From: Saccoglossus kowalevskii
Lineage: Eukaryota; Hemichordata; Enteropneusta; Harrimaniidae
DNA length: 50,532 nt
Direction of reading: 5' to 3'
NCBI RefSeq assembly: GCF_000003605.2
Contig: NW_003115573.1
Location: 1 to 50,532, forward strand
The notes beneath the pieces were generated by a model. The model ran no database searches. It saw only the letters and a list, made by a program, of their open reading frames with translations, and was not told the origin of the DNA. Of this stretch, positions 5,698-43,559 are shown in pieces (positions within the stretch are counted from its first letter, which is position 1; every line of letters begins with the position of its first letter). A program made the position numbers and the translations under genes.

Positions 5698-5804
5698 GCC
5701 GAAATAGCTCAGTTGGGAGAGCGTTAGACTGAAGATCTAAAGTCCCTGGTTCAATACCTCGGCGGGTTCGCGCGAGCCTGACAGAACTGTCCCGGGTTTC
5801 GGCA
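5698..5804 (+). tRNA. tRNA-Phe(GAA)-like copy 7, variable-loop deletion
   Basis: One G is missing from the variable loop (AGGTC becomes AGTC), giving 107 bp. All stems pair. Insert begins ACCTCGG and contains GCGCGAGCC. The upstream spacer has the private variants GGGTCCTGG and GCAATTGAC, found again before copy 55. Confidence 0.6.
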
Positions 5805-28745: not shown

Positions 28746-28853
28746 GCCGAAATAGCTCAGTTGGGAGAGCGTTAGACTGAAGATCTAAAGGTCCCTGGTT
28801 CAATACCCCGGCGGGTTCGCACGAACCTGACAGAACTGTCCCGGGTTTCGGCA
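28746..28853 (+). tRNA. tRNA-Phe(GAA)-like copy 34, representative copy with T-loop insertion
   Basis: Representative element. Acceptor 1-7 GCCGAAA pairs fully with 66-72 TTTCGGC; A73 is the discriminator and CCA is not encoded. T8-A9; D stem GCTC/GAGC with loop AGTTGGGA; anticodon stem TTAGA/TCTAA with loop CTGAAGA (GAA, phenylalanine); variable loop AGGTC; T stem CCTGG/CCGGG. After T59 of the T loop, 35 extra bases precede C60. Deleting them gives an exact 73-nt animal-type tRNA-Phe. The junction is ambiguous by one T (58/59 or 59/60). The insert holds a hairpin of about seven pairs in CGGGTTCGCACGAACCTG. Box A (TAGCTCAGTTGG) is perfect. Box B reads GGTTCAATACC, one mismatch from consensus. 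A T6 run starts eight bases after the 3' end. It is tRNA-Phe-derived with high confidence, but whether it makes a mature tRNA is unknown; animal nuclear tRNA introns are known only at 37/38. Confidence 0.75.
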
Positions 28854-29599
28854 GATTATACTTTTTTACTCTTTTCTCCTGATTTTTTTAATTAACTCTT
28901 TCAATAGTTAAGTTTAAATACTAGTAGTGTATGCATATTTATAATATGTTTATGAAAGTTACTGGTTTGACGACAAAGATACTTGTGTACGGCGTATACG
29001 TCCAAAAAATATCAGATCACCAAAAAAACGAATAACACTATTACCCAAAAACAAATCGTGATACAAATGTTAGGAACGTTTAGAGATACTGGAGAGTACT
29101 AACCAAAGCGGCCAAAATACGGCGTTTTACCGAGGGTTGGTATCAGAGTATTCCAAAAGGCAGTTTTGCGTAGACGGTAATACATGTATATTCTCATTGT
29201 GGAAATAATGTGTAAATATATTTTGTTTTCTATAAACTTATATCGATAACATTCCAGGTCAGCATAGTCCCACTGGTCAGCTGGATACTCTGGTTCCTGG
29301 TGCCAGGAAACTGATTTACGTAATTTGTGAATGAGACAAAACACCTGTTACCATTCGTTCTCATTCACCAATTACGCATTGACTACCATGAGTTCAACCA
29401 TGGAACTAAAACCCATCCAATTGTAGTTCCATGGTATACTCATTACTATCAGCTGGCAATTTAAACTGAAATTGTGATCGGCTACGTATAATATAACAGA
29501 AATAAATAACATTAGCTTTCTCGCTATTATTAACAGTTTCCCACTTTGAACAATCCAAAATATGCGAGATGAGTGTGAATAGCCAAATACTGTTTCGTT
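28854..29599. repeat. Representative inter-tRNA spacer (746 bp)
   Basis: AT-rich spacer repeated between all copies. In order it has three T-runs just after the tRNA-like element, then an AACTNTTTCAATAGTT inverted repeat, then an AT-rich stretch (TATGCATATTTATAATATG). About 250 bp without recognised motifs follow, and then a block of four inverted repeats starting 406 bp before the next element. The last 225 bp or so are again AT-rich up to the TTTCGTTG leader. No ATG-initiated reading frame of note and no second RNA gene were recognised. Confidence 0.85.
28862..28889 (+). terminator. Pol III-type T-run terminators after copy 34
   Basis: T6 at 28862-28867, T4 at 28872-28875 and T7 at 28883-28889 lie 9 to 36 bases past the tRNA-like 3' end. 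Runs of four or more Ts terminate RNA polymerase III in eukaryotes. The same triple arrangement is present after nearly every copy, with the first run varying from five to nine Ts; it is interrupted after copy 28. Confidence 0.7.
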
Positions 29600-32160: not shown

Positions 32161-32268
32161 GCCGAAATAGCTCAGTTGGGAGAGCGTTAGACTGAAGATC
32201 TAAAGGTCCCTGGTTCAATACCTCGGCGGGTTCGCGCGGGCCTAACAGAACTGTCCCGGGTTTCGGCA
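32161..32268 (+). tRNA. tRNA-Phe(GAA)-like copy 38, T loop interrupted
   Basis: Consensus body in spite of the diverged spacer before it. The insert has ACCTCGG, GCGCGGGCC and TAACAG, three changes from the common form, so the insert varies more than the tRNA body here. Confidence 0.68.
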
Positions 32269-41568: not shown

Positions 41569-41676
41569 GCCGAAATAGCTCAGTTGGGAGAGCGTTACAC
41601 TGAAGATATAAAGGTCCCTGGTTCAATAACCCGGCGGGTTCGCACGAGCCTGACAGAACTGTCCCGGGTTTCGGCA
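41569..41676 (+). pseudogene. tRNA-Phe-like copy 49, anticodon-stem mismatch
   Basis: G30C and C40A as in copy 47, insert AACCCGG. First half of the 1,425-bp dimer; followed by a shortened spacer. Confidence 0.58.
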
Positions 41677-42134
41677 GATTATATTTTTTTTACTCTTTTC
41701 TCCTGATTTTTTTAATTAACTCTTTCAATAGTTATGTTTAAATACTAGTAGTGTATGCATATGTATAATATGTTTATCAAAGTTACTGGTTTGACGACAA
41801 AGATACTTGTGTACGGCGTATACTCTGGTTCCTGGTGCCAGGAAACTGATTTAGGTAATTTGTGAATGAGACAAAACACCTGTTACCATTCGTTCTCATT
41901 CACCAATTACGCATTGACTACCATGAGTTCAACCATGGAACTAAAACCCATCCAATTGTAGTTCCATGGTATACTCATTACTATCAGCTGGCAATTTAAA
42001 CTGAAATTGTGATCGGCTACGTATAATATTCCAGAAATAAATAGCATTAGCTTTCTCGCTATTATTAACAGTTTCCCACTTTGAACAATCCAAAATATGC
42101 GAGATGAGTGTGAATAGCCAAGTACTGTTTCGTT
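41677..42134. repeat. Shortened spacer with 288-bp deletion (first)
   Basis: Only 458 bp instead of about 746. The left part breaks at GGCGTATAC and resumes at TACTCTGGTTCC. Both sides share ATAC (41820-41823), so the junction is a four-base microhomology or lies within it. The rest is normal spacer with inverted repeats 1-4. Confidence 0.88.
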
Positions 42135-42992: not shown

Positions 42993-43100
42993 GCCGAAAT
43001 AGCTCAGTTGGGAGAGCGTTACACTGAAGATATAAAGGTCCCTGGTTCAATAACCCGGCGGGTTCGCACGAGCCTGACAGAACTGTCCCGGGTTTCGGCA
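42993..43100 (+). pseudogene. tRNA-Phe-like copy 51, anticodon-stem mismatch
   Basis: G30C and C40A, identical to copy 49. The spacer before it has a three-base insertion (CTGGATGATACTC) that adds one codon to the spurious minus-strand frame. Confidence 0.58.
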
Positions 43101-43559
43101 GATTATATTTTTTTTACTCTTTTCTCCTGATTTTTTTAATTAACTCTTTCAATAGTTATGTTTAAATACTAGTAGTGTATGCATATGTATAATATGTTTA
43201 TCAAAGTTACTGGTTTGACGACAAAGATACTTGTGTACGGCGTATACTCTGGTTCCTGGTGCCAGGAAACTGATTTAGGTAATTTGTGAATGAGACAAAA
43301 CACCTGTTACCATTCGTTCTCATTCACCAATTACGCATTGACTACCATGAGTTCAACCATGGAACATAAAACCCATCCAATTGTAGTTCCATGGTATACT
43401 CATTACTATCAGCTGGCAATTTAAACTGAAATTGTGATCGGCTACGTATAATATTCCAGAAATAAATAGCATTAGCTTTCTCGCTATTATTAACAGTTTC
43501 CCACTTTGAACAATCCAAAATATGCGAGATGAGTGTGAATAGCCAAATACTGTTTCGTT
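43101..43559. repeat. Shortened spacer with 288-bp deletion (second)
   Basis: 459 bp, with the same breakpoint as the first shortened spacer (ATAC at 43244-43247). It also has one extra base in inverted repeat 3 (GGAACATAAAACCC). The identical junction shows it is a duplicate, not an independent deletion. Confidence 0.88.

Follow-up and report, generated by a model that had tools for sequence, protein, structure and literature searches.

The question raised by this locus is whether tRNA genes that carry an insertion in the T loop can be working genes, and what would then become of the insertion. The DNA analysed, here called the window, is 50,532 bases long and makes up the whole of contig C913 (G000:C913) in a genome of 572 Mb and 4830 contigs. 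TRF reported one single tandem array (positions 1-50528, + strand, period 854, 58.8 copies, 93% match), which fills the contig. BLAST placed 60 copies of tRNA-Phe(GAA) in the window, all on the + strand. The array units run head-to-tail and each of them contains a Pol III-type tRNA gene, as in a tandem tRNA gene array. Two units, at 41569-42134 and 42993-43559, were short: the distance from their start to that of the next unit is 566 and 567, against the regular 854.

The copy at 28746-28853 is the commonest of 33 distinct gene versions among the 60 copies and is shared by 10 identical copies. Its 5' exon (tRNA positions 1-58, for a 58/59 junction) lies at 28746-28803, the 35-nt insert, or proposed T-loop intron, at 28804-28838 (28805-28839 if read as 59/60) and the 3' exon (tRNA positions 59-73) at 28839-28853. 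The unit spacer follows at 28854-29599, also on the + strand. The claim of the first-pass annotation that every tRNA-Phe copy has an insert of 34-35 bases was confirmed in 60 of 60 copies. The insert was 35 nt long, with 34 nt in three copies (577, 1430 and 10823), and the copy at 5698 lacked one body base instead of having a shorter insert. The earlier count of 31 of 60 copies in which precise removal of the insert restores the exact canonical 73-nt tRNA-Phe was reproduced as well. Every standard pair was present after excision in 42 copies, a tRNA body with a broken pair or a lost base was found in 18, and the anticodon was GAA in all 60. The restored 73-mer is presumably the usual animal-type tRNA-Phe. 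An insert at 58/59 or 59/60, within the T arm of an otherwise intact tRNA and not at the standard eukaryotic 37/38, has the position of an ectopic T-arm intron, as which it would be removed.

None of these interrupted genes was called by ARAGORN in the window. The Rfam tRNA model matched 48 stretches of the window, fragments for the most part. End-to-end Rfam tRNA matches of 67-71 nt were seen in the copies at 32161, 40714, 5698, 50398 and 27892; they ended within the insert, possibly due to chance pairing of CGGC in the insert with the 5' end. Two strong, neighbouring hairpins were observed in the spacer, at 29319-29376 and 29397-29435, with arms of 18 and 15 nt that are 94 and 93% complementary. 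Their fold z values were -4.3 and -5.0 on the + strand, and they belong to the least variable parts of the spacer. When the spacer was scanned for other RNA, no Rfam family came near the cut-off and both hairpins were without a family. An origin of the insert by duplication of tRNA or spacer sequence was rejected, the similarity being not above that of shuffles (P 0.33-0.96).

The internal promoter elements of a Pol III gene were located in the copy at 28746-28853, on the + strand. Box A (TAGCTCAGTTGG, 28753-28764) was exact in 49 of 60 copies. Box B (28797-28807) had the core GGTTCAAT in all 60, followed by ACC in 39. The insert sits 3' of the box-B core and the internal promoter therefore largely survives the insertion. 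A terminator-like T run lies at 28862-28867, and 59 of 60 copies have five or more consecutive T beginning 8-10 nt past the 3' end of the gene. Variable sites of the array clustered in three segments, namely the leader of 14 nt, the insert and the trailer of 10 nt. Of the 59 positions there 36 were variable, and when the annotation was rotated around the unit, 1 of 853 rotations gave as high a count; the test used 57 of 59 complete units, the two short units having been dropped. Hotspots beside conserved tRNA bodies are attributed to transcription-associated mutagenesis of tRNA genes in the available text of PMC8113476. Since the clear leader and trailer hotspot of the window family did not reach significance in a second family of arrays, described below, it was counted only as support.

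Within the window array, comparison of pi gave no sign that the tRNA body is more constrained than the spacer. The values were 0.019 for body positions 1-59 and 0.025 for the 3' part versus 0.018 for the spacer, and 0.020 versus 0.016 for body and distal spacer. Shared and single variants were also compared, with P 0.08 for body against insert and P 0.04 for body against insert plus flanks, a test made weak by linked variants. The body that is no less variable than the spacer and the 18 damaged bodies are what would be expected if the arrays were satellites, derived from an insert-bearing tRNA-Phe pseudogene and homogenised, while the real tRNA-Phe genes were unassembled or too divergent for the queries used. 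The caution of the first-pass annotation, that recent homogenisation could explain the clean bodies, was therefore justified by the window data, given also that the hotspot is not significant in the second family, and the worry is a fair one within the window array. It was mostly answered by the second family, owing to its unrelated spacer.

Besides C913, five further contigs were found to contain the interrupted tRNA when the genome was searched. On C544, C4641 and C4721 it is contained in arrays of units of about 458 bp. The 854-bp and 458-bp units have only the interrupted tRNA and some 8-15 flanking bases in common, and no spacer similarity was detected between the two families (best hit E 0.11). 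The consensus tRNA bodies of the two families are identical at 73 of 73 positions. Their inserts measure 35 nt in the window family and 33 nt in the second, with 24 aligned positions in common. In the second family 130 copies begin at nt 1 and 112 of them have the exact 3' end; when joined at 58/59, 64 of these 112 gave the exact canonical tRNA. Here pi of the body was half that of the spacer (0.026 versus 0.052; 3.5% of rotations as low), as determined on 114 units of 440-475 bp with other units dropped. Counts of variable sites were alike, 43 of 73 in the body and 155 of 282 in the spacer (P 0.60), which leaves a point in favour of the satellite explanation. The same body in two arrays with unrelated spacers, combined with a diverged insert between the exons, argues for purifying selection on the body, as homogenisation within an array is insufficient to produce it. 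At C47:284000-303000 (L009, L010) the interrupted tRNA occurs in scattered copies, some full and some partial, several of which have additional changes in the body, and a copy on C2456 (L011:4919-5005) is truncated inside the insert. These scattered copies look like decaying ones.

A dead satellite would be expected to coexist with normal tRNA-Phe genes, and the first-pass annotation had suggested searching the same genome for uninterrupted ones. All complete tRNA-Phe genes found in the 572-Mb genome carry the T-loop insert. The joined T arm and acceptor GGTTCAATCCCGGGTTTCGGCA was not matched anywhere in the genome when 2 mismatches at most were allowed. As a positive control, the insert end plus 3' exon TGTCCCGGGTTTCGGCA gave 213 exact matches, with C47, C544 and C913 among the matches listed, and a reversed control gave none. 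A genome search with the 73-mer returned no match past position 66 among the 40 scored of 346 candidates, all 40 of which were on contigs of the second family. ARAGORN detected no tRNA in loci L009-L018, and exact tRNA-Phe patterns were found neither in viral contigs nor in contigs of prokaryote genomes. The suggested search thus came out in favour of the interrupted genes, within at most 2 mismatches and with 40 of 346 candidates scored; it covered tRNA-Phe genes in assembled DNA with at most 2 differences in their last 22 bases.

An assembly of 4830 contigs is likely to contain gaps. Together with the 40 of 346 candidates scored, this gives some room to satellites accompanied by tRNA-Phe genes that escaped the search. 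Against it stands the assembly of other tRNA genes: intact tRNA-Arg(TCG) on C237, tRNA-Cys(GCA) on C926 and C682 and tRNA-Thr(TGT) on C4103 were assembled in tandem arrays of nearly a single isotype. The Arg, Cys and Thr tRNAs were uninterrupted according to ARAGORN (loci L019-L048, including C1937), with a few stray Pro, Leu, SeC and unnamed calls. In this search of other isotypes the best 63 of 25,204 candidates were scored, and since scoring the best first favours intact genes, further tRNAs of this genome may be interrupted. Unassembled or divergent tRNA-Phe genes beside pseudogene satellites appear unlikely when weighed against the identical body in a second array, and the reading as a dead satellite is disfavoured on the sequence evidence. 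There is a slightly better than even chance that this is a eukaryote, with a presumably animal-type tRNA-Phe, without any uninterrupted gene for it, so that decoding of every Phe codon needs either removal of a T-loop intron or a tRNA with an extra arm at the elbow.

T59 is the same letter as the last base of the insert and the junction can thus be written as 59/60 or 58/59 in the window family. The second family gave the same canonical tRNA only at 58/59, since 59/60 results in A59, and among the junctions tried 58/59 alone led to one and the same canonical tRNA for the two families. The placement at 59/60 in the first-pass annotation fits the window family and had to be changed to 58/59 for the second. 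At 58/59 a 3-4-3 core was present in both families. Its 4-bp helix is formed by the exon strand GTTC (tRNA positions 53-56; 28798-28801, + strand) and the intron strand GAAC (28833-28836, + strand; GAAT in the second family), and its bulges are TG|T and AA|T, the second family having AA|A in place of the latter. The core was intact in 57 of the 60 window copies, in 49 of the 55 distinct copies of the second family and in all 3 full copies on C47. By chance, shuffled inserts had a Watson-Crick core in 0.44% of cases when the junction was 58/59 and in 0.7% when three junctions were considered; a core tolerating G-U pairs arose in 3-6%.

The flanks of this core are less regular. If the 3' bulge is drawn with 3 nt, 1 bp is left for the outer helix; when four T-stem pairs are retained, the bulge grows to 5 nt. 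The inner helix is then 3 bp in the second family and one pair in the window family. Relaxed motifs with two flanks arose in 16-17% of shuffled inserts. The junction motif is a non-ideal hBHBh', with flanking helices that are relaxed or absent. The earlier statement that no bulge-helix-bulge could be drawn was consequently wrong for the core and right in that ideal flanking helices are absent. According to the available text of PMC8707768, a bulge-helix-loop substrate consists of a 3-nt bulge, a 4-bp helix and an internal loop, motifs of BHB type occur at non-canonical sites including T-arm loops, and minimal BHB substrates are left uncut by eukaryal endonucleases at 30°C.

Between the two strands of the core, the insert contains a hairpin of 7 bp with a 4-nt loop (28812-28829, + strand), in which compensatory changes were observed between the array families. 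Covariation was analysed on 91 distinct copies (33 from the window, 3 full copies on C47 and 55 from the second family), leaving out partial copies and the truncated C2456 copy. The insert hairpin was paired in 97.6% of cells. Changes on both sides were found in 3 of 7 hairpin pairs, as G-C versus A-U at two neighbouring pairs and as a U-A/U-G/C-G series at a third. For the whole structure the percentage paired, the double-change cells and the covariation score were higher than in any of 500 shuffles or any slid version; double-change cells numbered 77, compared with 31 on average in the shuffles. Pairs with a double change were no more numerous than in shuffles (4 versus a mean of 3.5, a count reached by 209 of the 500), and up to 7 such pairs occurred in slid versions. 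Cells count copies and not events, and most of the covariation signal is one split between two families; within the window family alone there were no double changes. RNAalifold recovered the insert hairpin unprompted and returned neither the cloverleaf nor the core helix. Single-sequence folds were not better than shuffles, with z -1.13 for the gene and -0.68 for the insert. In the fold of the window copy the 3' strand of the T stem prefers another partner and the canonical T stem has a probability of 0.01. Judged by these compensatory changes, which also count against the satellite explanation, the insert resembles an RNA hairpin under selection.

A conserved hairpin could have been kept for reasons other than translation. 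The arrays could encode a tRNA-derived non-coding RNA or bind TFIIIC; the RNA hairpin, or a chromatin-organising role of the promoter boxes, would then be the reason for their retention. The box-B core, the terminator, the largely exact box A and the hairpin all agree with such a role, and a boundary function has been proposed for a human tRNA tandem repeat in the available text of PMC4041453. Promoter boxes alone, however, would not preserve the anticodon and the identity of the consensus body across families, and this explanation is very improbable.

The hairpin could also be part of the mature molecule. A working tRNA-Phe that keeps the insert would be 106-108 nt long, with acceptor, D, anticodon and T stems as usual and an extra hairpin arm that leaves the elbow between bases 58 and 60 of the T loop and points outward. 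In the free fold of the second-family consensus the acceptor stem, the D arm and the canonical T stem are formed and the insert extends the T arm; the usual anticodon arm is missing. Such an extended T arm, the maintenance of the hairpin by compensatory change and the invariance of T54-A58 in 91 of 91 distinct copies fit an extra-arm tRNA. The core helix, on the other hand, fits the geometry of a splice site at the one junction, of those tried, from which both families regain the canonical tRNA, and an arm of the mature tRNA agrees poorly with the unequal length of the insert in the two families. No cytosolic tRNA of this shape is known. Retention of the insert in the mature tRNA is quite unlikely.

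The first-pass annotation had left two options, an inert satellite or an unusual processed or extended tRNA-like RNA. The second is now favoured because of the second family and because no intact gene was found at up to 2 mismatches or among the 40 scored of 346 candidates. The interrupted genes are probably, though far from certainly, working nuclear tRNA-Phe(GAA) genes with an ectopic intron of 33-35 nt in the T loop at 58/59, which is removed by the tRNA splicing endonuclease. From function we infer splicing. The long tandem arrays would hold the genome's working nuclear tRNA-Phe(GAA) genes. Judging from the sequence, Pol III would read the gene from boxes A and B and stop at the downstream T run. 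In the precursor, exon GTTC (53-56) would pair with GAAC or GAAT close to the 3' end of the intron, AA|T (or AA|A) and TG|T would form the bulges that bear the cuts, and the conserved hairpin would cap the intron. Cleavage of both bulges by the tRNA splicing endonuclease and ligation of the exons would yield the ordinary 73-nt tRNA. If this is true, an essential tRNA has a T-loop intron in all of its genes, and tRNA splicing can operate at the elbow in a large eukaryotic genome. This would likewise explain why such genes get missed, as by ARAGORN here, and make them a natural test case for the way in which modification enzymes dependent on the T loop cope. The tandem arrays provide hundreds of natural variants from which splicing rules may be read.

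A literature search in an incomplete library, at the level of titles and abstract openings, found no animal nuclear tRNA with a T-loop intron. Archaeal noncanonical tRNA introns usually have a fuller BHB than the one described here. Junctions at 59/60 in the T loop occur in permuted archaeal and red-algal tRNAs, as far as the available text of PMC3218864 goes, and the genes of the window resemble the archaeal noncanonical introns and the permuted 59/60 tRNAs of Thermofilum described there in having a break in the T loop with a junction of BHB type. The Thermofilum permuted tRNAs differ in being archaeal and in that their halves are swapped, which is not the case here. With regard to organisation, tRNA genes are likewise found within repeat units in the tandem tRNA arrays of Entamoeba (PMC2888827), the human tRNA VNTR at 1q23.3 (PMC4041453) and the SYY cluster of Arabidopsis (PMC12308677); unlike here, an interruption of the T loop is not described for those tRNAs in the available parts of these sources. 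Eukaryotic tRNA introns usually reside at 37/38, with atypical sites in some eukaryotes, for example a red alga, according to the available part of PMC9602550. Nuclear T-arm introns of Cyanidioschyzon merolae are given there and in the accessible text of PMC3978253 at 55/56 in tRNA-Gly(CCC) and at 53/54 in tRNA-Ile(UAU). The genes of the window are similar in having a short T-arm intron in a nuclear tRNA, and one C. merolae intron is entered with a relaxed BHB ('no h') in the text available. As stated in the accessible portion of PMC3978253, homologs of the TFIIIC subunits that bind the A and B boxes were not identified in C. merolae, and an upstream TATA was proposed. The genes of the present arrays, in contrast, are interrupted at 58/59 in a genome of 572 Mb, in a presumably animal-type tRNA-Phe, and have largely kept both box A and box B.
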